Below the pieces are notes generated by a model. That model was not told the origin of the DNA and made no database searches. It was given only the letters and a program-made list of their open reading frames with translations. Shown here in pieces: positions 9,251 to 58,626 of a DNA stretch of 64,000 nucleotides; positions within the stretch are counted from its first letter, which is position 1; the number at the start of each line of letters is the position of its first letter. The translations under genes were made by a program, and so were the position numbers. This DNA comes from Calditrichia bacterium (GTDB lineage: Bacteria > Calditrichota > Calditrichia > RBG-13-44-9 > J075), in assembly GCA_028284905.1 (NCBI GenBank), contig JANQQU010000012.1:186001-250000 (forward strand). The letters run 5' to 3'.

Positions 9251-12200
9251 TTATTTCATGAGTATCATCTTCCGCACTCGCTCAAATCCTTGTGCTGAGC
9301 TTGCCGAAGGGCTGGCTTTGAGGTGGTAGAAATACAGGCCGCTGGCAACGAATTGCCCACTGCTGTTTTTGCCATTCCAAACCACATTGTGGTAGCCGGC
9401 CGCTATATTTTCGTTTACCAGCGTATTTACCAGCTGCCCGGCTACGTTGTAGATTTTCAGGGTTACCCGGCCCGCTTCCGGCAGGGCGAATTTGATAGTT
9501 GTATTTGGGTTGAATGGATTCGGGTAGTTCTGTGCCAGCGTATAGGTTTTGGGCAGAGCAACGGTATTGCCGTTTTCAGCTTTCCGCAGGCCGCGCCCAT
9601 GTTCTAGGGCGATGCGGGCATCTTCCCAGGCATCGCGGTATTCTTTCACCGCCACATCATGATCGCCGGCAGCAATTTCCACGTCGGCATCGGCCATGTC
9701 TGCCTGGGCATCGGCGACTTTATCATCTACTGCCGCATTGCCTGCGTATTCTTGCGCTTCCGCCAGCTTTACCTCGGCGAGCATTTTTGCCAGATCGACA
9801 ATTTCGTTGATCTCATCCGTGGTAACTGCACCGTCTGCTTCAGCATCCTGCAACTGCTCCACTGCGTCCTGCAAATCATCGAAACCGGGTTTGATATCAC
9901 CTTCGTTGAAATCTTCGATGGCGTCGTTTAATTGCTCAATCGCATCTTCCAAATCGGCGTTGGCATTGCTGGAATATCCTCCGGTGTCGATAATGTTCTG
10001 GATATTTGCAGCAGCAGCGTTGATATCATCTTCCGCATCCATACCCTGGGCGATGGCGCTTCCGAGGTGGATGGCGCGCTGCAATTCCTTGCGAGCACTG
10101 GCCAGACGGCGGATGGCGAGATCAAAATTGCCATCTGCTAATTCATCGAGATAATCCTGGTAAAATTTATCAGCATCGTCAATGTAATCATCCACTTGCG
10201 GATCACCGGCAAAAACAACGGCGTTGGTCTGTTCTTCAGCGACAAGCACTTCCGCCAGATCGACGATGGCGTCGATGATCTCCTGCACATCAGCGCCATC
10301 ACTGAGGGCATCCATCAGCTCGTCTACCGCTTCTTCCAGGCCTTTATAAGCTTCCTGCGCATCGTTGTCCTGGAAATCTTCCACGGCACTGTTCAATTCC
10401 TCGCAAGCATCTTCCAGGTCCGCAATCGCCCCGGTGGGAAGGTTCGGATCGTTGAGGATTTCCAGCACGTCGGACATCACATTATTGACAATATCGTCCG
10501 GTTCCGCTTCTTCACTCGGCGGAATGTATAAATCCATACCGCTGACCGATTCAACCCCGAAATCACCAATAACGGTACCGACGCCGCTGGTTTTATCGAT
10601 CGCGATCAGTTCCTCGCGTTTGGAGCCAAAAAGGTTGCCCTCGGCGTCAAAATGAATATCCTGGGTGTTGCTGCCCAGTCCGGTGGTGCCAAGCAGGGTG
10701 GGCGCGCCATTGGTTTTGTCGATTTTGTAGATTTTATCCCCGGTGCCGGATGCATAGAGGGTGCCGTCCGTCGGATCAAAATCCATTCCGACAATTACTT
10801 CGCCTATAGAACCGACCACCGTTACATCACCGGTTGCCGGATCGATCGTTACCAGCTCTTCACTATCTCTGCCGATAGCATAGAGAACATCATTTTCATC
10901 GAAAGCCATCGCCGCGTAAACATCACCCAGATAGCCGATGTACTGGAAATCCCCATCGGCGGCACTGATGACGAAAAAATCATACTCCGTATTGGCCGCA
11001 TAAATAATTCCCTGGGAGTTAATGGCGATTGCCGGATAACCGGCATCCTCTCCCTCCAGGATGTCGCCGACCAGAGTGGCGTAGGGGGTGTTCGTTGTGT
11101 CGATAGTATATAATTTGCCATAATCATCATAGCCGGTTGAAGCATAGCATACGCCGGGAAGTGCCGGCGCCAGTGCAAAGGCGCTGAGGAAAACTTCCCG
11201 GTTACCGGGATAAATTTCATCGCTCTCTATGATCACCAACATGGTGTCTCTACCGGCATCCAACGGGGTATAGACGACATCGAATGACAGTGTTGCCCCC
11301 GGGGAAAGCTGTGCTGGCAGGGTTGGCAGATTGCTGAGCGTGAATTCACCAGCGGGGATTGAGATCGTATTAACCGTCACTGGCGCATCCCCCAAATTCA
11401 TAACGGTAGTGGACTGTGTTTGAGGGGTATTTGCCACTGTCAAGTAAGACAAACCCGGTTGAAGGATACGAAGATACCCGCCGGATGGATTGGAGATATC
11501 CAACTCTAATCCTTCAATACCATTCTCCGCAAACAGCAGTGTGTCTGTGCTACTGCCATCAAATTTTGTCTGAACGATTAAGTAATCCAGCGGCCAATCA
11601 GCACTTTCAGCCCAATAAATGTTTTCATTGAGCGCATCTATCGCAAGCTTGCGCGGATGGTTCGGGCCATCAGCAATTGTTTCCAACTGGCTACCGTCCA
11701 GATTGATACGATAGACCTTGTCTTCCCGGCCACCAATTAAATATATTTTTCCGGAAATTCTTTCAATGATCATGTCCTCTACGAAAGGAATGTTGATAAG
11801 GCTTTCCTCGTTAGTGCCATCCAGCGCCATGCGAGAGATAGATGATCTGGAATACCAGTATAATTTTTCTGAAACAGGATCGATTTCGATTAGTTGCGGT
11901 CGAATGCTAAGAATGCTGCCGATATCGCGCAGCGTCACGGTGTTGCTACCATCCAGGTTGGTACGTTTAAATTGTCCGAGTACAACCCAGTACAATTGAT
12001 TGGCAACAGTATCGATGACCATATCAGTGTTGGACTGATTTGCAATTTCAAAAACAATGGTTTCTAACCCGCTCCCATCAGGATTTGCAGATTGAATGAC
12101 ATCATATTTTTGTCTGTTGAGCCAATAAATTTTGCCACTTCTTTGGTCAACTTCAATGGCATGCGCTTCCCCGCTGCCGATAATTCCTTTCCGATTACCT

Positions 12201-48425: not shown

Positions 48426-49208
48426 ATGGTATCTTCCCGAATTATCGGTGACCCATCTTTGCCATCAATTCTTTTCCTTCATGGATTTATGGGCAGTGGT
48501 GAAGATTGGATGCAAATTGCATTGCGCTTGCAGTCTTCATTTTGCAGCATATTAATTGATTTGCCTGGCCATGGGAATGCGAGTTCTGCAGCATATGATC
48601 AATCTTGGGGAATGCAGGAAACCTCTCAGGCAATAATAGCCGAATTACAGCGTATTAATGTGAAACATTGTTACCTGGTCGGTTATTCGATGGGGGGGCG
48701 AATTGCACTCCATCTAACTTTAAATTACCCGGAATTTTTTAAACAAACGATACTGGAATCTGCTTCCCCGGGCTTAGCGACTGCGGAGGAACAAAAAGCA
48801 CGCATCAAAAAGGATGCAACGCTTGCCCGGCGCCTGCTAAAGGAAGATTACAGCGAATTCCTGGAATGGTGGTATCAAATACCGTTGTTTCAGGGAATCT
48901 CCGAACATTCCGATTATCCAGCGATGATGGAACGAAGATTGAAGAACAATCCGGCGAATTTGGCTAAATCACTAGCCGATATCGGTACCGGCAGTCAGCC
49001 CTCTCTGTGGGAAAAACTTAGGGATAATTCCACTCCAATTCTGCTGATAAGCGGTGAAAAAGATATGAAATTTCAAGTGATTGCTGAACGCATGGTTCAT
49101 TCCGGGAGACGGATTTCCCGAACAGTGATACCGGGCTGTGGGCACAACTGTCACTTTGAGCAACCTAAGGCATTTTGCAGGATTCTGATGGATTCTTTCA
49201 CGGAATAG
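48426..49208 (+). CDS. menH: Alpha/beta hydrolase, MenH-like
   Basis: 260 residues. PSILFLHGFMGSGEDWMQIA, IDLPGHGNAS, LVGYSMGGRIALHL (nucleophile Ser88), LLISGEKDMKF (acid) and GCGHNCHFEQP (His) form the triad pattern of SHCHC synthase MenH. MenH eliminates pyruvate from SEPHCHC in menaquinone synthesis. The neighbouring menB supports the assignment; other alpha/beta hydrolases of this size cannot be excluded. It is 24 nt after bioY. Confidence 0.8.
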   Translation: MVSSRIIGDPSLPSILFLHGFMGSGEDWMQIALRLQSSFCSILIDLPGHGNASSAAYDQSWGMQETSQAIIAELQRINVKHCYLVGYSMGGRIALHLTLNYPEFFKQTILESASPGLATAEEQKARIKKDATLARRLLKEDYSEFLEWWYQIPLFQGISEHSDYPAMMERRLKNNPANLAKSLADIGTGSQPSLWEKLRDNSTPILLISGEKDMKFQVIAERMVHSGRRISRTVIPGCGHNCHFEQPKAFCRILMDSFTE

Positions 49209-49416
49209 AGAAAAATATAAAAATTCTTCGATCTGCAAAAAAACTTGATATATTTTCAACTTCACCGGTAAAGTTCATTTCGGTGAAGCTGCTTCGAAAA
49301 TGGCCCGGGAATAACCGAGGATAAAATAAAGAAGCTGAAAATTTGTCTTTAAATAAATACCGGGGCTCAAAAAAGCCTGCCGGTTAGCGATAAATTAGTA
49401 TACGGAGGAAGAACCT

Positions 49417-50241
49417 ATGAGTGTTGTAGAATGGCATGCCGCAGACGGATATACCGATATTCGCTATGAAAAATGTGAAGAGGGTATTGCAAAGATAACG
49501 ATTAATCGTCCGGAAGTGCGAAATGCATTTCGTCCATTAACGGTAAAAGAAATGATTCATGCCCTGTCGGATGCGCGCGATGATGCCAATGTTGGTGTCA
49601 TTATTCTCACCGGTGAAGGTGAAAAAGCTTTCTGTTCCGGCGGAGATCAGCGTGTGCGTGGTGATGCCGGTTATGTGGATGACGGCGGCGTTCATCGCCT
49701 GAATGTTCTCGATTTTCAGCGCCAGATCCGCACCTGTCCTAAGCCGATCATCGCGATGGTTGCTGGTTACGCAATCGGCGGTGGTCATGTATTGCACATG
49801 ATGTGCGATCTGACAATCGCAGCAGATAACGCTATCTTTGGCCAGACTGGCCCGAAGGTTGGCTCTTTTGATGGTGGCTATGGCGCCGCTTATATGGCCC
49901 GTATGGTTGGCCAGAAAAAAGCGCGGGAAATCTGGTTCCTGTGCCGGCAGTATAATGCTCAGCAGGCAATGGATATGGGCATGGTAAATACTGTCGTGCC
50001 TTATGCCGATCTGGAAGCAGAAACAGTTCAGTGGTGCCGGGAAATTCTGGCAAACTCCCCGATTGCGATTCGTTGCCTGAAGGCAGCTTTAAATGCGGAT
50101 TGCGATGGACAGGCAGGATTACAGGAACTGGCCGGAAATGCCACGATGTTATTTTACATGACTGAAGAAGGACAGGAAGGGAAGAAAGCTTTTCTGGAAA
50201 AGCGTAAACCGAATTTCCGGAAGTTTACCCGTCGTCCATAA
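49417..50241 (+). CDS. menB: 1,4-dihydroxy-2-naphthoyl-CoA synthase
   Basis: 274 residues. Begins with the MenB-type [57 protein letters not shown] and the diagnostic [16 protein letters not shown] with a C-terminal FLEKRKPNF are MenB hallmarks that separate it from enoyl-CoA hydratases. It closes the naphthoate ring in menaquinone synthesis, implying a menaquinone-based respiratory chain. GGAGGA lies 7 nt upstream. It is 208 nt after menH and followed by a strong terminator. Confidence 0.95.
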
Positions 50242-51229: not shown

Positions 51230-51637
51230 TTATCTATTGCCAATAATCGGTAGTTTATCCCGATGCATGTATATCAGGGTTACTGCGCAAAGGAAGGTAA
51301 CAACCGCCAGGGCGAAGAGCGCTCCACCATCGTGAACGCCAGCAGCACCGAGATCGATGCCGAGCACTGTTAAATGGCTAAATATTGCACCTGCCATCGT
51401 GCCGACAGTTAATACCGCGCCATAAGCAACAGTGTTTGGTGCGATAAGTAATGCCGCAGCAATCAGCTCGATAATACCGGAGCCGATCCGTCCCCAGGGT
51501 TCTGCGCCCAGTGTCGAGAAAATTTTAATCGACTCTTCTGCGCCGGAAAATTTGAAGAACAGCGTTTGCAACATAATAATTGCTGCAACCACTTGCAGAA
51601 TTCTGCTAATCCATATTTGCTTGCCGGATAATGCCAT
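51230..51637 (-). CDS. DoxX-like membrane protein
   Basis: 135 residues, four membrane segments (ILQVVAAIIMLQTLFFKFSG; IIELIAAALLIAPNTVAYGAVL; GTMAGAIFSHLTVLGI; GGALFALAVVTFLCAVTLIYM). The FKFSGAEES and GIIELIAAALLI patterns fit the DoxX-like family. The role is not known; some relatives act in quinone or sulfur metabolism. GGAGG 8 nt upstream of the ATG. Confidence 0.82.
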   Translation of the reverse strand: MALSGKQIWISRILQVVAAIIMLQTLFFKFSGAEESIKIFSTLGAEPWGRIGSGIIELIAAALLIAPNTVAYGAVLTVGTMAGAIFSHLTVLGIDLGAAGVHDGGALFALAVVTFLCAVTLIYMHRDKLPIIGNR

Positions 51638-51702: not shown

Positions 51703-54315
51703 TTAAACTGGTTCGCGTTGAATAATGGTCTTCAATAAAGTAATCACCGGGGTGGTGGAATGGCCTTGCAGACTGTTCTGCTGCCCGATCTCAAATGCAA
51801 TTTCCCACTGCCGCCATAGAACCTTATAGGCTTCCCATAAACTGTTTTTCGGGTCGTAAATGTGCGTCGCTTCCGAAGTGACACCATTTAACTCAACAAT
51901 CTTGAAATTCTTGCCGTTACGAAAATCTTCCAAAGAGGAGGTGCGAATGTCAAAACGGCCGAAATAAAATCCTGGATATTTTTTGGCAATTTTTTCGATG
52001 GCTACGGTTAGTGCCGGGGTTCGGATCTCCATGCCATCCAAAAAGATTGCACCTCGGCTATGGGTGCCGATATTTACCAATGGAATATCTTCTCCGTCCG
52101 CCGGTATGTCAAAAAGATGGTCAGCATGCTTTTGCAGATGGAAGCGCGCCATACAAACCGCCCGAGGATGATCGAGGATTAATTGCTCCAGAGTATCTTT
52201 ACCATTCCCGGTCAGGTGCAGAAACTGTTTGTCAGTAATCGAGTAAATACTGCCGGTCTTCTGGTTAGGGTAACGATAGTAAAATATACCATACTCCACG
52301 CCGGGTACATAAGCCTGGACAATCACCGGTAAAGTAGCATTTGCCAGATAGGTTTTTACATCCGCTTCAGAGCTCGCGAAAGAAACGCCGCTACCACGTT
52401 CTCCCTGGTCCGGTTTGAGAACGATGGGAAAATTTAGTTGGGCTTCAGTCATAAAGTTCTGCACTCCCCGGCACTTTTCATCCAAAGGTAAATTCGGTGG
52501 AATCAGATGAAATGCAGCGACAAAATCCGGACTACTTTGCAACCCTCGCAGTATCGCCGATTTGGATTCCCCAACGACGCCGCCATCCGGTATCGCCGGA
52601 TTTGCTGCAGTGAATAAGGTGAAAGCACGATGGCGTAAGCCTAGAAATAAAACATATATCACTACCGGAATGTAAAATATCTGCAACGGCCAGAATTCCC
52701 AATGTCGCAGCCGTAAATAACTAGAGTAAAGTAATCGCCGTCCCCGATAGGTAAAGAGCGGGACGATCAGCTTTAATATCAACCAAATAAAGAGTATCAG
52801 GGACAACAACACCCAAAGCGCGTATTGTTGAAAAGCCTCATAGTAGTCGAGCAGTTGTTGCCCAATGAGCATTGCCAGGCCGACCAACAACGGCGTCCAA
52901 AGGGCGGCAGCGAGAACGAAATAGAAGGTAAACATCCAGAAGCCTGCCTCCAAGGCACCGGCAGCGAAATAAGTCGGCAAGCGACTGCCAGGTAAAAAGC
53001 GACTGGCCAGAATAATCGCCGGTCCTTTGGACTGAAACCAGCGACGGGAGCGGAGGACATCTTCTCCCTTGATCATCCATTTTAACGGCGGATATTTCAG
53101 GGCGGATTTTCCAAAAGCTTTCCCTACCAGATATAGCAGCATATCCCCGACAAATATCCCCAGAAAGGAGGCAAAAACGGCTGGCCAAAAACCAATAATG
53201 CCCCGGGCCGCCATTAATCCGGCGCCAATGCAGGCAAGATCTTCGCTAATAAAAGTGGCGAGTGCGATAAGGATAATGAAAACGAACAGCGTGATGCCTT
53301 CAGCCTTTTTCACTTCTCGTGCGGTGAGCGGCCTGGCAGCGTCAGCAATGCGCTCGGCTGCTGCATTGATCCTGGTGATCGCTATTCCCGAATCTGCTCT
53401 AGCAACAAAGCTATGAATCAATGGGGAAATTATGCGGGTTTTTCCCATAACAAGGCCATGCCCGCCACTCGGATGGATATAAATTTCACTCTGGGGAACA
53501 ATCCGATGATGCTCCCGGGCGGCGGCGATTGGTACCAGCGCATCATCTATTCCGTGGATGATCAGCATCGGTTTTTTATATCTTTTCAGTATGTCCCGAA
53601 TGGGGCGTTGATCGGTATCGTAAAAGCTGCGAGCGTAAGGAATATTTAGCGGGAAATGGTCGAATAGCCCAAAGTGGGGTGTCGCCTCATGGAATAACCA
53701 GATGAGGGCCAGCTGCCCTCCATGAACGGCATGGTTGAGATGGTAATCGCCCAGTAATTCAAATTCTTGTACGCCAATTGCCGATACCATCGATATGGAT
53801 TGAATGCGATCCGGCGCTATTTCTGCCATGTAGGGCGCAACGCCTCCACCCAGGCTGTATGCAACAAGATGCACCTTCTCAATCTGCAAAGCATCCATAA
53901 ACTGCAACATGTATTTTGCGACTGTTTTTACAGAATAATCTCCCTCAGGTTTGCCTGAGGCACGATAGCCGGGATAATCCGGCGCCAATACCCGGGCTTC
54001 GCCGGAGAGGGAATTGATGAACCGTCCGAGCATTTCCGTACCGACCGGGCTGCCATGGAGTATTAGCAAAGTTGGCGGAGTAGGATCATCACCCTGGTAT
54101 TCATCATAATAGGAAATTGAATTTGTTTTTTCCGGAGCTGCGCCCGCATCAGATTGCGCAAGGGAGACAACTTTTTGCCCTTCGCCGGGGAGATATTCCA
54201 TCGGTTGAATATATCGGTAAAGGTGAGAGAGGAATAGCAAGCCGATATAAAGGAAAAAAATATTCCGCCAGGTTAATATGCCTTTTTTAGGTCTGCCGGA
54301 TTTATTGCTCATCAA
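51703..54315 (-). CDS. Three-part fusion: alpha/beta hydrolase, DedA membrane domain, ATP-grasp
   Basis: 870 residues with three recognisable parts. A membrane anchor lies at ~18-34. The alpha/beta hydrolase spans ~65-305: LLILHGSP, Ser154 in VAYSLGGG, Asp257/258 in IIHGIDDALV, His286 in SGGHGL. The DedA/VTT domain at ~340-515 has SEDLACIGAGLMAARGIIG, FLGIFVGDMLLYLVGKAFG and SRFLPGSRLPTYFAAGA. The ATP-grasp ligase part at ~530-850 has RLRHWEFWPLQIFYIPVVIYVLF, FTAANPAIPDGGVVGESKS, the loop KPDQGERGSGVSFA and KIVELNGVTSEATHIYD. The parts suggest making or processing a lipid-linked or membrane-delivered acyl/peptide compound, but the substrate is unknown. It overlaps the NRDE gene by 14 nt. Confidence 0.85.
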   Translation of the reverse strand: MMSNKSGRPKKGILTWRNIFFLYIGLLFLSHLYRYIQPMEYLPGEGQKVVSLAQSDAGAAPEKTNSISYYDEYQGDDPTPPTLLILHGSPVGTEMLGRFINSLSGEARVLAPDYPGYRASGKPEGDYSVKTVAKYMLQFMDALQIEKVHLVAYSLGGGVAPYMAEIAPDRIQSISMVSAIGVQEFELLGDYHLNHAVHGGQLALIWLFHEATPHFGLFDHFPLNIPYARSFYDTDQRPIRDILKRYKKPMLIIHGIDDALVPIAAAREHHRIVPQSEIYIHPSGGHGLVMGKTRIISPLIHSFVARADSGIAITRINAAAERIADAARPLTAREVKKAEGITLFVFIILIALATFISEDLACIGAGLMAARGIIGFWPAVFASFLGIFVGDMLLYLVGKAFGKSALKYPPLKWMIKGEDVLRSRRWFQSKGPAIILASRFLPGSRLPTYFAAGALEAGFWMFTFYFVLAAALWTPLLVGLAMLIGQQLLDYYEAFQQYALWVLLSLILFIWLILKLIVPLFTYRGRRLLYSSYLRLRHWEFWPLQIFYIPVVIYVLFLGLRHRAFTLFTAANPAIPDGGVVGESKSAILRGLQSSPDFVAAFHLIPPNLPLDEKCRGVQNFMTEAQLNFPIVLKPDQGERGSGVSFASSEADVKTYLANATLPVIVQAYVPGVEYGIFYYRYPNQKTGSIYSITDKQFLHLTGNGKDTLEQLILDHPRAVCMARFHLQKHADHLFDIPADGEDIPLVNIGTHSRGAIFLDGMEIRTPALTVAIEKIAKKYPGFYFGRFDIRTSSLEDFRNGKNFKIVELNGVTSEATHIYDPKNSLWEAYKVLWRQWEIAFEIGQQNSLQGHSTTPVITLLKTIIQREPV

Positions 54316-55048
54316 CCAGAGATCCTATGTATTGGCGAATAAGGGTGACCGGAGGATCCGCCGAAGTTGTGCAGGGCGATCCGGGAGTATAATGAAAAGC
54401 GACTTCATTCTCCCGGACAGCTATATGACTAAAGCTGACGGTTTGGGCATCGGAGCGATGCATACAAACTGAATATGCGCCCCTCTCAGGATTATGACTG
54501 GCATGAAAAGCGCGATATATTCCGGCTGAATCGAAGGGGGTAGCAGTAAGAAACTGCTGACGTCTACCATTAATAACTGTCTTTGGTTGGAAAGAAGATG
54601 ACGCCAGCGGTGGCCTGACATCGGCCGTTTGCAGATGTTCCGACTCACCATTCCAGGTCAGCGTTTTTAACGCTTCATCGGGCGCGAAAATTACCAGAAT
54701 AAACGGACGGAATTGTTGCCAGTTAAACATTTCAGTCCGTTGAATAACTTCCAGAGAAGATTGGCAGGACAGGAGAGATTTAACCAGCTGGCCACGGCTA
54801 ATGTAATCCTTACCATTGCTGTTGCTAAGGGGCGAACCCTGATAATAATTCAATAAACAAAGCGACATGCCATACTGGTTAACGCCAATCCAGGTGCCCC
54901 CGGCATCTTTGTCAATCGGGGCAATAAAGTGTGTGCCTTCGGCCTGGTGTATCGTCGGAGGGAGGGCAATTTGCCTTGTGCGTGATTCATCCCGATTAAA
55001 AAAAAGTTCGTAACCGTTTTCGTTATAAAACCAACTAACAGTACACAT
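54302..55048 (-). CDS. NRDE/TANGO2-family protein
   Basis: 248 residues. MCTVSWFYNENGYELFFNRDESRTR carries the family-naming NRDE motif; Cys2 and TWIGVNQYGMSLCLLNYY also fit the N-terminal-nucleophile hydrolase-like pattern of the family. Human TANGO2 affects lipid and haem metabolism; bacterial roles are unclear. The 14-nt overlap with the fusion gene downstream implies co-translation. Confidence 0.9.
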   Translation of the reverse strand: MCTVSWFYNENGYELFFNRDESRTRQIALPPTIHQAEGTHFIAPIDKDAGGTWIGVNQYGMSLCLLNYYQGSPLSNSNGKDYISRGQLVKSLLSCQSSLEVIQRTEMFNWQQFRPFILVIFAPDEALKTLTWNGESEHLQTADVRPPLASSSFQPKTVINGRRQQFLTATPFDSAGIYRAFHASHNPERGAYSVCMHRSDAQTVSFSHIAVRENEVAFHYTPGSPCTTSADPPVTLIRQYIGSLVDEQ

Positions 55049-55149: not shown

Positions 55150-55683
55150 CTAGCGATCGAGGGTCATCTCCTGATGCTTTAATGTTGAGGGTGCAATGCC
55201 GAAGTCGGCGGGAGGATTGGATCCCTGAATTCTGAGAATAAGGGCGATCATCGCATAGTGATGGACGGTATGGCTAATTAAAAATGAGAGTTCTCTTTTC
55301 AGATTAGATTCGCTCCAGAGATTTTCAGCGCAATTATCGATACCTTCATTACATTTGATGGATATCGGTTTTTCAAATAAATCGAGTCTGTTCTCCAGAT
55401 GCGTTAGCGCGTTAATATTTTCCTGAGATTTTTCAATAGCAAATGCCCGATCCGATTCCAGGCGGGGATCGCGTTCCCGGGCATCGTAATCGATGCCGGT
55501 GATAATGCCATCGAAAAAATTGCCGTAATGATCGAGCACATGGCGAAAATGTTTACCGACGCCATTCTGAAAATAGGTATGATGATCGTTTTGATAGATA
55601 TGATCTTCAATGTTTTCCAATAAGGCAATCCCTTGATGTAAAAACGCAATATTATCGCGTATTAATTCCATATATTGCTGCAT
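55150..55683 (-). CDS. DinB-superfamily metal-binding protein
   Basis: 177 residues, four-helix bundle pattern. Histidines in KHFRHVLDHY and SHTVHHYAMIALIL are placed as the metal triad of DinB-fold enzymes, which include thiol transferases. Its start overlaps the plsC stop (TAATG), so it is coupled to lipid genes. The reaction is unknown. Confidence 0.78.
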   Translation of the reverse strand: MQQYMELIRDNIAFLHQGIALLENIEDHIYQNDHHTYFQNGVGKHFRHVLDHYGNFFDGIITGIDYDARERDPRLESDRAFAIEKSQENINALTHLENRLDLFEKPISIKCNEGIDNCAENLWSESNLKRELSFLISHTVHHYAMIALILRIQGSNPPADFGIAPSTLKHQEMTLDR

Positions 55684-56456
55684 TATTCCTCCAAAGATAC
55701 TACCGGTGTAAATATTTTATTCGCTTCGCCCCAGAGTTTTTTCGCAAGTTCTTTACGATCATTTAAATGGATTGGCGCTGCGCCGAAAGTGATCGTCGCT
55801 TCGATGCTGGGCACCTTAACCAGCCCGAGCAAGTGGGGGAAGAAACCCATGTCTCCCCACCAACAGACGTGAAGATAGGCCGGAAATTTCTCATTCCCAG
55901 TAAGGTAACTTACCGTCGCATAATAGACCGGCATATTTTCGCTGGCCGGAAACTGAAGTAGTGATGGACGAAAGGGGAGAATACCGTCCCCCTTGCTACT
56001 GGTGCCTTCCGGAAACAATACAACGCCATGATGATTGGTAATGTGCTCGGCAATCAATTTGTTTACGCGGGTGAGATCCCGATGGTTTTGCCGGTCTACA
56101 AAAATGGTATTGGCAACCCGGGCGCTATATCCCATCAACGGCCAGCCGCTGACTTCCTTCTTGGCGATAAACACACATTTTAGCTGAGTAAATAGTAATG
56201 GAATATCTATATAGCTTAAGTGATTGGAAACCAGCAAAAACGGCGGTTCCGGGGCAGTACCGCGCACTTTGATCTTAATATTGAGAATTCTGGTAATTGC
56301 CCTGCCCCACCAATGAACCATACACATCCGCCAACGGCTGCGCAGAGATTTCGAGAAAAAAAGGAAAAGCAGTCCGATAATTAGTATGAGTGTCGCCAGA
56401 ATTGTTGCTGCAGCAAATAGTAGCAGGCGCCTTATTAAACGTATATTCTCTCGCAA
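55683..56456 (-). CDS. plsC: 1-acyl-glycerol-3-phosphate acyltransferase (PlsC/OlsA type)
   Basis: 257 residues. An N-terminal membrane segment (~9-35) precedes LVSNHLSYIDIPLL (NHxxxxD catalytic motif) and VVLFPEGTSSKGDGILPFRPSL. It transfers an acyl group to a lyso-lipid at the inner membrane. Directly downstream of the OlsB-like gene (24 nt), it is likely OlsA, the second enzyme of ornithine-lipid synthesis, though a general PlsC role is possible. Confidence 0.88.
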   Translation of the reverse strand: MRENIRLIRRLLLFAAATILATLILIIGLLFLFFSKSLRSRWRMCMVHWWGRAITRILNIKIKVRGTAPEPPFLLVSNHLSYIDIPLLFTQLKCVFIAKKEVSGWPLMGYSARVANTIFVDRQNHRDLTRVNKLIAEHITNHHGVVLFPEGTSSKGDGILPFRPSLLQFPASENMPVYYATVSYLTGNEKFPAYLHVCWWGDMGFFPHLLGLVKVPSIEATITFGAAPIHLNDRKELAKKLWGEANKIFTPVVSLEE

Positions 56457-56480: not shown

Positions 56481-57305
56481 TTAATCGAAAAACATATTGT
56501 ACGTACGCGAATCGAATTTTCCAACATCGAGTAACACAAGGTAGTCGATGGTCTTAAATGCCCGGTCAATAGCCGGGGGGCCACATACTTTCGCACCGTA
56601 ATTTAGATAGATCCTGAATAGTTTCGGCAACTTCACTTTCTCTATGCCGCTAAACGGCAGATCCGCCGGGTAACATTCGAATCCCGCCTGGGGAGAAATT
56701 TGAATGTGCTGATGAACCTGCCCGGATGCTTTCAGCTGTTCCATTAACTGTTTGCCTTCCAGTGGATCCTGACTGGTCAAAGAGCAGCAGCCGAAGAGGT
56801 AGCGTTTACGGGCGTAAAGCATGTATTTGGCAATGCCTTTCCAGAGGAGGAAAAGCACTTTTCCATTGCGATGTTCCCGGGCAATACAGGCACGCCCGAC
56901 TTCTACGGCATTCGTGATAACCGCTTGTGGAAACATAGAAAGTATAAATTCACCGTCTGAGTAAAATCCATTGGCATTCTTTGCCATTTCCAAAGTTTGC
57001 ATGCGATAGGTCGCGATGACGCTGTTATTACCTTTTTCGGTGACCAGGAGATGATGGCATTGATCATCAAACTCATCCTGATCGCGCATGGTATCAAAAG
57101 ATGCAGATAACCCTTCTCCCAATTCCAGGTTGAAAACTTCAAAACGTAGTTTTAAGGCAGCATCAAGTTCGGCGGCATTTGCGGCAAAATGAACCCGATA
57201 GCGGCTGTTTTCAATCTGAATGGCTGGATTTCCGGGGAAAAATGATGTTGCATGGGATTTTAGCAGTGATGACTTACTTGTCTTTGCCATGGGTTTCGTA
57301 CTCAT
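56481..57305 (-). CDS. olsB: GNAT-like N-acyltransferase (OlsB/hemolysin family)
   Basis: 274 residues. YRVHFAANAAELDAALKLRFEVFNLELGEG, DEFDDQCHHLLV, VIATYRMQ and VGRACIAREHRNGKVLFLLWKGIAKYML match the acyl-ACP-dependent acyltransferases that make lyso-ornithine lipid. An AAAGGA site precedes the ATG. Together with plsC it suggests ornithine or related amino-acid lipids in the envelope. Confidence 0.83.
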   Translation of the reverse strand: MSTKPMAKTSKSSLLKSHATSFFPGNPAIQIENSRYRVHFAANAAELDAALKLRFEVFNLELGEGLSASFDTMRDQDEFDDQCHHLLVTEKGNNSVIATYRMQTLEMAKNANGFYSDGEFILSMFPQAVITNAVEVGRACIAREHRNGKVLFLLWKGIAKYMLYARKRYLFGCCSLTSQDPLEGKQLMEQLKASGQVHQHIQISPQAGFECYPADLPFSGIEKVKLPKLFRIYLNYGAKVCGPPAIDRAFKTIDYLVLLDVGKFDSRTYNMFFD

Positions 57306-57492: not shown

Positions 57493-58626
57493 CTATTCGG
57501 CGTTCTTTTCCAGAGACTTTTTCAGGTCTTTTAGTAAGTCGCGAATGTCATTGAAGCTTTCGAACTGGCTTTCCAGCTCCGCGTCTTTATCCCGTTGTTC
57601 GCTTTGGAGAAGCGCTTCCCGGGCTAGGGCTAAAGCTGCCTCGGAATTGCCAAAGGCCCGCTCCGCTTTGGCCATCCAGTATTTACATTCAACCTGGTAA
57701 CCAATAGAGGTATAAGGCGCATTATCCAGCCGGGTGAGTAACTCCCGGAAGATTGCATCTACCGTTGCCCAGTCTTCGGACTGAATCATTAAACGGCCTC
57801 GTAAATATAGAGAAGACATCGTTTTAACCCGGGCGGATTGCTCGAATGCATCCAGCACTGTAAGGGCTTCGTCATACTTTTTGTAGTCATATAATGCAGT
57901 AACATGCACCAGGCTGGCTTCTGCCGGGCAATATTGACCATGGCGCACTGAAAAATCGATTTGCTCCAGACCAAAGTCGCGTTTGTCGGACATCCAGAAG
58001 GCGACAATACGAATAAACTTTGAACGGGCGGTTCGCCAGTAATGGTAGGAACCGAGGCCAAGATAAACATCATAGAGCGACGGTTCTTTTTTCAGTGCTT
58101 TCTTAAAATTACCAATGCCTTTTTTGCCATCCATGTAGGCCCCGATCCAGTTAAAACTGCGAATCCGGAAAAAAGCCCGGTAGCCATAGGCGGCACCAAT
58201 GTAGAAATTCAGCCAGGGATCATCCTTGCGCAGTTTCAGCATGGCATTGCCTTTATCGATGGCAAGCTGGACGTTCTCCTCCAGTTCCTTTTGGTATTTA
58301 CTGAAGCGGTAACTGCTCATCCAGGTTTGATAGGTGGCTGCCTTGTAAAAGTAGGGCGCGGGGTGATCGGGATAGGCCATTTGCAGACTGTCGAAGAGAT
58401 CAATGCTTTCCTGAAAACGATCTTCATAAACCATTTGTAAACCCCGGGAGAGTGGTTCATGAAACAGGGAATCCTGCGGGGCAATCGCATCTGCAGCTAC
58501 TTCCGGCAATTTGTCTTTGCCCGGTAAGGGGAGGGCAAACAGCGTCAGGAGCATTGCTACTAAAAAATACGCCTGGATATTAAACTGCCGCCGGAGATTA
58601 GCAATTGCACGATTTGCCGTTTTCAA
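57493..58626 (-). CDS. Exported TPR-like protein
   Basis: 377 residues starting with TTG (AGGG 8 nt upstream; no ATG in frame nearby). A signal or anchor segment lies at ~20-36 (YFLVAMLLTLFALPLPG). The rest is helical repeats with TPR character (LFDSLQMAYPDHPAPYFYKAATYQ, FKKALKKEPSLYDVYLGLGSYHYWRT, EALTVLDAFEQSA). Protein-protein scaffold in the periplasm is the usual role; the partner is unknown. It follows the LytTR gene on the same strand by 146 nt. Confidence 0.75.
   Translation of the reverse strand: MKTANRAIANLRRQFNIQAYFLVAMLLTLFALPLPGKDKLPEVAADAIAPQDSLFHEPLSRGLQMVYEDRFQESIDLFDSLQMAYPDHPAPYFYKAATYQTWMSSYRFSKYQKELEENVQLAIDKGNAMLKLRKDDPWLNFYIGAAYGYRAFFRIRSFNWIGAYMDGKKGIGNFKKALKKEPSLYDVYLGLGSYHYWRTARSKFIRIVAFWMSDKRDFGLEQIDFSVRHGQYCPAEASLVHVTALYDYKKYDEALTVLDAFEQSARVKTMSSLYLRGRLMIQSEDWATVDAIFRELLTRLDNAPYTSIGYQVECKYWMAKAERAFGNSEAALALAREALLQSEQRDKDAELESQFESFNDIRDLLKDLKKSLEKNAE

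Follow-up and report, generated by a model that had tools for sequence, protein, structure and literature searches.

A conserved hydrolase–DedA–ATP-grasp membrane protein with contextual ties to ornithine-lipid-type aminolipid synthesis

What might a cell do with a single polypeptide in which an alpha/beta-hydrolase, a DedA membrane domain and an ATP-grasp ligase are joined, and is such a chain real? An open reading frame (ORF) of this kind lies in the window, the whole stretch of 64,000 nucleotides from a Calditrichia bacterium that was analysed here (contig JANQQU010000012.1, positions 186,001 to 250,000). The original prediction described one polypeptide with three parts, each complete by its motifs, an ATP-grasp part resembling a stand-alone family, and a rare fusion. 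It proposed synthesis, flipping and release of a lipid-linked amide or ester, with DedA moving a lipid carrier across the membrane. It suggested a comparison with separate genes in relatives, and named loss of catalytic residues, or an assembly join of separate genes, as what would count against it. The features of the locus are collected in Table 1.

Table 1. The fusion ORF, its three parts and the neighbouring genes; positions are those of the window.
Feature	Position	Strand	Residues or remarks	Evidence
Three-domain protein hydrolase–DedA–ATP-grasp	51703..54315	(-)	870 aa	One ORF; TTG start, likelier ATG at 54312
Alpha/beta-hydrolase part	53374..54138	(-)	About aa 60-314; S154, D258, H286	PF00561, triad, Foldseek to esterases
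DedA/VTT part	52729..53328	(-)	About aa 330-529; E358, D359, D391, R439, R445	PF09335, invariant residues
ATP-grasp part	51706..52728	(-)	aa 530-870; K634, K696, R787, D789, E808, N810	Alignment, residues, structure model
DoxX-like membrane protein	51230..51637	(-)	Directly downstream of the fusion	PF13564 1.3e-07
TANGO2/NRDE-family protein	54302..55048	(-)	Cys straight after initiator Met; overlaps the fusion start	PF05742 1.1e-14, 55.6 bits, cut-off 22.6
DinB-like protein	55150..55683	(-)	Four conserved His	PF05163 0.0018, below cut-off
OlsA-like O-acyltransferase	55683..56456	(-)		PF01553 1.2e-19; NF052553 5.5e-42, below cut-off
OlsB-like N-acyltransferase (GNAT)	56481..57305	(-)		PF13444 1.1e-27; NF052554 6.4e-36, below cut-off
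TPR-repeat protein	57493..58626	(-)	Upstream	Seen only with close relatives

Two of the three domains were recognized above their Pfam cut-offs, Abhydrolase_1 (PF00561) on residues 81–179 (1.2e-22; 81.3 bits, cut-off 25.8) and VTT/DedA (PF09335) on residues 366–480 (4.8e-17; 63 bits, cut-off 33.9). The RimK-type ATP-grasp match on residues 606–670 was weak (0.0031) and, at 17.6 bits, fell short of its cut-off of 21; the RimK-type score of a Balneola relative was 26.2 bits. The ATP-grasp domain was modelled with a mean pLDDT of 95.6, and its best structural match was cyanophycin synthetase (7wae_A; Z 17.3, rmsd 4.2 and 18% identity over 269 residues; Foldseek, 3.6e-11), with many further ATP-grasp structures, including RimK-, Ddl- and LysX-type, among the matches. 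A profile search with this part reached a RimK-domain chain at 2e-09, and its ATP-grasp residues are common to ten aligned relatives. Because so confident a model matches cyanophycin synthetase, we conclude that the ATP-grasp domain is real. In the full-chain model (mean pLDDT 87.4, pTM 0.64) the domain folds are reliable and their relative arrangement less so.

The fusion ORF opens with TTG-ATG. The ATG, which lies within the 3' end of the upstream NRDE gene, is likelier to be the start than the preceding TTG. Promoter and terminator scans gave results no better than chance level. Two other origins or identities were considered and rejected. The Salinivibrio relative is labelled D-Ala-D-Ala ligase in plasmid records, but Dala_Dala_lig_C matched only 2 of 10 members (best 0.0072, E limit 1); a search for a phage origin gave no match in phages.

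In a search of 60 genomes, full-length relatives without inner stops were found in G005 (56% identity) and G004 (55%), which belong to the same family as the window genome and to other genera. The parts do occur as separate genes elsewhere, as might be expected if the ORF were an assembly or annotation join, but relatives with an open, full-length frame in independent genomes and several phyla rule this out, and we attach practically no weight to it. The comparison with separate genes found counterparts in several genera. Vibrio and Photobacterium have DedA, ATP-grasp, DinB, NRDE, YHS, DoxX and OlsF-like genes; in Salinivibrio, DedA, ATP-grasp, DinB and NRDE are grouped with no Ols gene close by; and in Paracoccus, ATP-grasp, hydrolase and VTT genes adjoin. 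Azospirillum carries a DedA–ATP-grasp protein without the cluster partners. No Ols gene was found around the Azospirillum or Paracoccus genes.

Named genomes were then scanned with an alignment of the window's own ATP-grasp family, and the best 80 of at least 558 relatives were analysed. Contig edges truncated ten ORFs (4 DedA–ATP-grasp, 3 ATP-grasp and 3 three-part), and these were set aside. Among the 70 5'-untruncated relatives kept from these best 80, the hydrolase–DedA–ATP-grasp order was present in 35, DedA–ATP-grasp in 28 and ATP-grasp alone in 7. Stand-alone relatives thus exist, as had been suggested, and within this family and sample the fusion is not rare, contrary to the original prediction. 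As the 80 loci are best matches and mutually related, locus counts given here are not independent. Loci L050 and L053, taken to be the same as G005 and G004, were kept in the 80-locus counts and dropped from the tree and from the 38 fusions scored for the triad. Three-part proteins were found across several phyla and were scattered in the tree. A single clade was not supported, since well-supported branches force at least 10 changes; this indicates that fusion and loss have been recurrent.

The ATP-grasp residues listed in Table 1 showed no variation in 38 fusions, and their equivalents were invariant in a wider alignment of 77 sequences, which covered 76 of the 80 loci and left out L094, L107, L113 and L123 (three near-copies). 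In the 38-fusion residue alignment, L050 and L053 stand in for L041 and L013. The residues fit the ATP-grasp pattern, in which two Lys bind ATP and the motifs R-x-D and E-x-N serve metal and phosphate. DedA proteins typically share certain acidic residues and a pair of Arg. In the fusions E358, D359, D391, R439, P442 and R445 did not vary, and the two Arg, six apart, are presumably comparable to the essential Arg of E. coli DedA proteins. The hydrolase triad was intact in the window protein. It was complete in 29 of the 38 fusions and broken in 9: all three residues were lost in five Balneolaceae (L092, L097, L101, L106 and L107), Ser was replaced by Gly in L093, L118 and L123, and the Ser stretch was absent in L059. 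Since the triad is broken in these 9, we regard the hydrolase as the dispensable part, though it is intact in the window. The five Balneolaceae hold on to the fused hydrolase domain without its triad and so form a natural pseudo-enzyme series. The description of three motif-complete parts in one polypeptide therefore stands, and the window protein revealed neither a loss of catalytic residues nor an assembly join.

The distribution of charge allowed a topology to be predicted. Median counts of K+R and D+E in the 38 fusions were 5 and 0 at the N-terminus, 8.5 and 3 in the 403–449 loop, 7 and 1 in the stretch preceding ATP-grasp, and 0.5 and 2 in the 484–496 loop. With the three positive segments inside and the 484–496 loop outside, the hydrolase would lie outside and the ligase inside, with DedA between. 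A hydrophobic helix at residues 544–561 directly precedes the ATP-grasp fold, and if it spans the membrane, as it could, this predicted topology fails. The Paracoccus stand-alone hydrolase has no N-terminal membrane anchor, which makes an outside location doubtful for that protein.

In the window the fusion belongs to a run of genes, all on the (-) strand, in the order TPR, OlsB-like, OlsA-like, DinB-like, TANGO2/NRDE, fusion and DoxX. The OlsB-like gene is the only copy in its genome. Its product scored 124.4 bits of the 350 set for the NCBIfam equivalog, and the OlsA-like protein 143.7 bits of 300; because both are below their equivalog cut-offs, ornithine itself is not established as the lipid amino acid. 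The acyltransferase H-x4-D motif is well kept in OlsA-like proteins (H in 34 and D in 35 of 35), as are the four DinB His (each 53/53). In the cluster NRDE proteins Cys, Arg and Asp were each present in 39/39; within the NRDE motif, N was present in 36/39 and R, D and E in 39/39. Judged by their sequences, these are divergent TANGO2 relatives, and their Cys after Met, with Arg and Asp, makes up what we take to be the Ntn cysteine hydrolase pattern. The DoxX-like gene is present in the clusters of many relatives too. In the Acidobacteria locus L103, a canonical TANGO2 (1e-74; 11030–11761) stands right behind DedA–ATP-grasp; the picture is similar at L064 and L105. Nearby in the window (48426–50241, (+)) are two genes named, from ORF reading, as a MenH-like hydrolase and a MenB-like hydratase.

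The window order is kept in G005 from TPR through the fusion, and in G004 it is split across two contig ends. From the best 80 of at least 558 relatives, 42 two-sided loci, having 4 kb or more on each side, were available. Within 5 kb, OlsB/OlsF was present in 33 of these 42, DinB in 34 (all on the same strand), OlsA in 26, NRDE in 21, DoxX in 14 and YHS in 7, while 7 of the 42 were without any of DinB, NRDE, DoxX and YHS. Beyond 6 kb, each partner family was found in 0–2 of the same best 80 loci. The control consisted of Ols loci from 19 of 36 same-class genomes with OlsB/OlsF and without ATP-grasp; DinB, NRDE, DoxX, YHS, VTT and hydrolase genes were found at none of the 19. The near and far counts, together with this control, rule out a chance neighbourhood.

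The association with Ols genes extends to the level of the genome. Distant Ols genes were sought in 14 genomes chosen for having no Ols gene within 5 kb (9 with two-sided loci and 5 others without a near Ols match). Strong OlsB/OlsF matches were found elsewhere in 11 of the 14, and no OlsB/OlsF match in the other 3 (G068, G070 and G071). Among 113 genomes sampled from one class, ATP-grasp was present in 7 and OlsB/OlsF in 43, and all 7 ATP-grasp genomes had both (P = 0.002, chosen centre left out). OlsBA is unlinked in G122, G152 and G184, where all or some of DinB, NRDE, DoxX and YHS remain beside ATP-grasp; the seventh ATP-grasp genome in the class, G171, has a lone fusion distant from its OlsF-like gene. 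Among 40 genomes of the Calditrichota phylum, the full-length ATP-grasp family was found in 3 and a close OlsB in 4. G006 (88% complete; L135, C351) has TPR–OlsB–OlsA–DinB followed by transporter genes, with no NRDE or fusion, which means either that the module has been lost naturally or that the genome is incomplete. This locus fits a tailoring step, because OlsB–OlsA–DinB stands without the fusion; it also indicates that DinB can accompany OlsBA alone. Our reading is that the tailoring module depends on the lipid and the lipid does not depend on the module. Two further loci come from genomes with OlsB and without ATP-grasp, L159 (G161) with YHS–DoxX–NRDE and L158 (G077) with NRDE alone.

The cluster, the dependence on Ols genes, the 19-locus control, the separate-gene counterparts, the invariant residues, the cyanophycin synthetase-like fold and the charges together suggest that the fusion serves an aminolipid pathway of the ornithine-lipid type as a tailoring enzyme bound to the membrane, a reading to which we give about an even chance of being correct. 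From these data we infer a substrate, a bond, a direction of transport and a role for the hydrolase. In established pathway chemistry, the products of OlsB and OlsA have a free alpha-carboxyl. The OlsB-like and OlsA-like neighbours would accordingly build an acyloxyacyl N-acyl-amino-acid lipid with its alpha-carboxyl left free. The ATP-grasp domain, at the inner face, would turn a carboxyl into an acyl phosphate and couple it to an amine; the favoured candidate for the activated group is the aminolipid alpha-carboxyl, in the way that cyanophycin synthetase activates a chain end. The product would have a two-residue headgroup, like that of ornithine–taurine or glycine–serine lipids, and the DedA domain would carry it to the outer leaflet. 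The hydrolase, predicted to lie outside, may trim or re-acylate lipids as an optional extra. Amide-extended headgroups of the ornithine–taurine and glycine–serine kinds have been described (PMC12493201). The synthesis and movement parts of the proposed function gain support from the Ols context, the invariant residues and the charges. Release fares poorly, as the hydrolase domain was not in the same ORF in 35 of the 70 untruncated relatives (best 80 of at least 558), in addition to the 9 broken triads. Context also favours movement across the membrane, with an aminolipid as likelier cargo than a generic lipid carrier. More tentatively, there may be a widespread aminolipid-tailoring pathway in which OlsB/OlsA lipids are headgroup-extended by an ATP-grasp enzyme fused to its own DedA flippase, the TANGO2-family Cys proteins and metal-binding DinB proteins being dedicated steps; we hold this broader view with less than even confidence.

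The ATP-grasp domain might instead activate a soluble carboxylic acid, an amino or fatty acid, and join it to the side-chain amine of an ornithine-type lipid, which would then be the amine partner. The evidence from the cluster and from Ols dependence applies here too, and the RimK-, Ddl- and LysX-type structures among the matches use many substrate arrangements. The closest fold, however, is that of cyanophycin synthetase, whose chemistry is chain-end extension, and we regard this alternative as unlikely. We consider it rather improbable that the locus encodes a repair or remodelling module, in which the hydrolase and NRDE proteins strip acyl chains, ATP-grasp re-forms the amide and DedA returns the lysolipid inward. 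Such a module has parallels in OlsI, an O-acyltransferase of hydrolase fold, and OlsH, a GH3 ligase that forms an amide at the expense of ATP (PMC12493201), and human TANGO2 binds acyl-CoA via its NRDE motif (PMC11867700); Cys, Arg and Asp are kept in the NRDE proteins, and the window hydrolase matches the OlsI model weakly (2.5e-07). That match, however, is one among many hydrolase matches and reaches 30.5 bits against an NCBIfam equivalog cut-off of 385, so that OlsI membership was rejected. Many relatives, taken from the best 80 of at least 558, either lack the hydrolase or have it with a broken triad.

The fusion might also act on an unrelated envelope precursor, for example a polyprenyl-linked amino acid, and share the cluster through membrane-stress co-regulation only. 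UptA moves undecaprenyl phosphate, and UptA models (NF052604, 4.1e-13) pick up the DedA part; the surroundings of the Azospirillum and Paracoccus genes, described above, are also in keeping with this view. But the UptA score is 49.8 bits against an NCBIfam equivalog cut-off of 250, on which UptA membership was rejected, and the genome-level dependence on OlsB/OlsF persists when the genes are unlinked. We find an envelope precursor distinctly improbable and retain aminolipid tailoring as the preferred reading.

We conclude that this three-part membrane enzyme is real, conserved and widespread, that its gene context ties it strongly to the synthesis of aminolipids, and that it probably modifies and moves amino-acid-containing membrane lipids in a hitherto undescribed manner. 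Its role as a pathway component and its gene context are new; the domains themselves are of known kinds. If aminolipid tailoring is correct, the fusion would be, to our knowledge, the first known ligase for two-residue aminolipid headgroups, and the cluster would for the first time place a bacterial TANGO2 relative in a pathway. Many bacteria from the environment use aminolipids in place of phospholipids, and among the matches listed from open-licence papers we found no description of enzymes that extend the headgroup. A synthase and its own transporter in one chain offer a testable model of coupled lipid synthesis and flipping. The human member of the TANGO2 family causes disease; the cluster puts TANGO2-family proteins beside N-acyl lipid enzymes in genetically tractable bacteria.

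Among the matches listed in the search of open-licence papers, none linked ATP-grasp or DedA to aminolipids, and none joined TANGO2, NRDE, DinB or DoxX to them. In the same literature, ATP-grasp, DedA and ornithine lipid were not found together, and ornithine lipid with ATP-grasp gave nothing beyond a reference-list entry; the one match for a fusion of DedA with ATP-grasp was a paper on a cyanobacterial genome. The locus resembles the ornithine lipid pathway in the OlsB-like and OlsA-like neighbours of the fusion, and in OlsF-like genes in other phyla. It differs in that the available portions of the published pathway descriptions name no ATP-grasp, DedA, DinB or NRDE partner, and in that the window OlsA-like and OlsB-like proteins miss the equivalog cut-offs. 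A second OlsF of Vibrio cholerae, VCA0646, has been proven to be a synthase and is the last gene of a four-gene cluster (PMC12186959). The Vibrio and Photobacterium clusters found here (L042 and L043) end in an OlsF-like gene. The published VCA0649–VCA0646 cluster may be a shortened form of these.

The planctomycete OlsH/OlsI route likewise combines ATP-driven amide formation with an alpha/beta-hydrolase-fold protein in aminolipid synthesis. Unlike the fusion, OlsH is GH3-like rather than ATP-grasp and takes the place of OlsB, which the fusion accompanies, and no DedA protein is described for that route in the available extract (PMC12493201). Compared with the DedA/UptA transporters, the fusion has a VTT domain above its cut-off and keeps both the acidic residues and the Arg pair spaced by six, but its DedA part is joined to two enzymes and misses the UptA cut-off. 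Cyanophycin synthetase, although the closest fold to the ATP-grasp part, is a soluble, polymer-making enzyme, whereas the ATP-grasp of the fusion is short, membrane-attached and placed behind DedA. Gluconobacter produces an ornithine–taurine lipid (cerilipin), for which we know of no ligase. The amide-extended headgroup of this lipid (PMC12493201) is of the product type proposed for the fusion.
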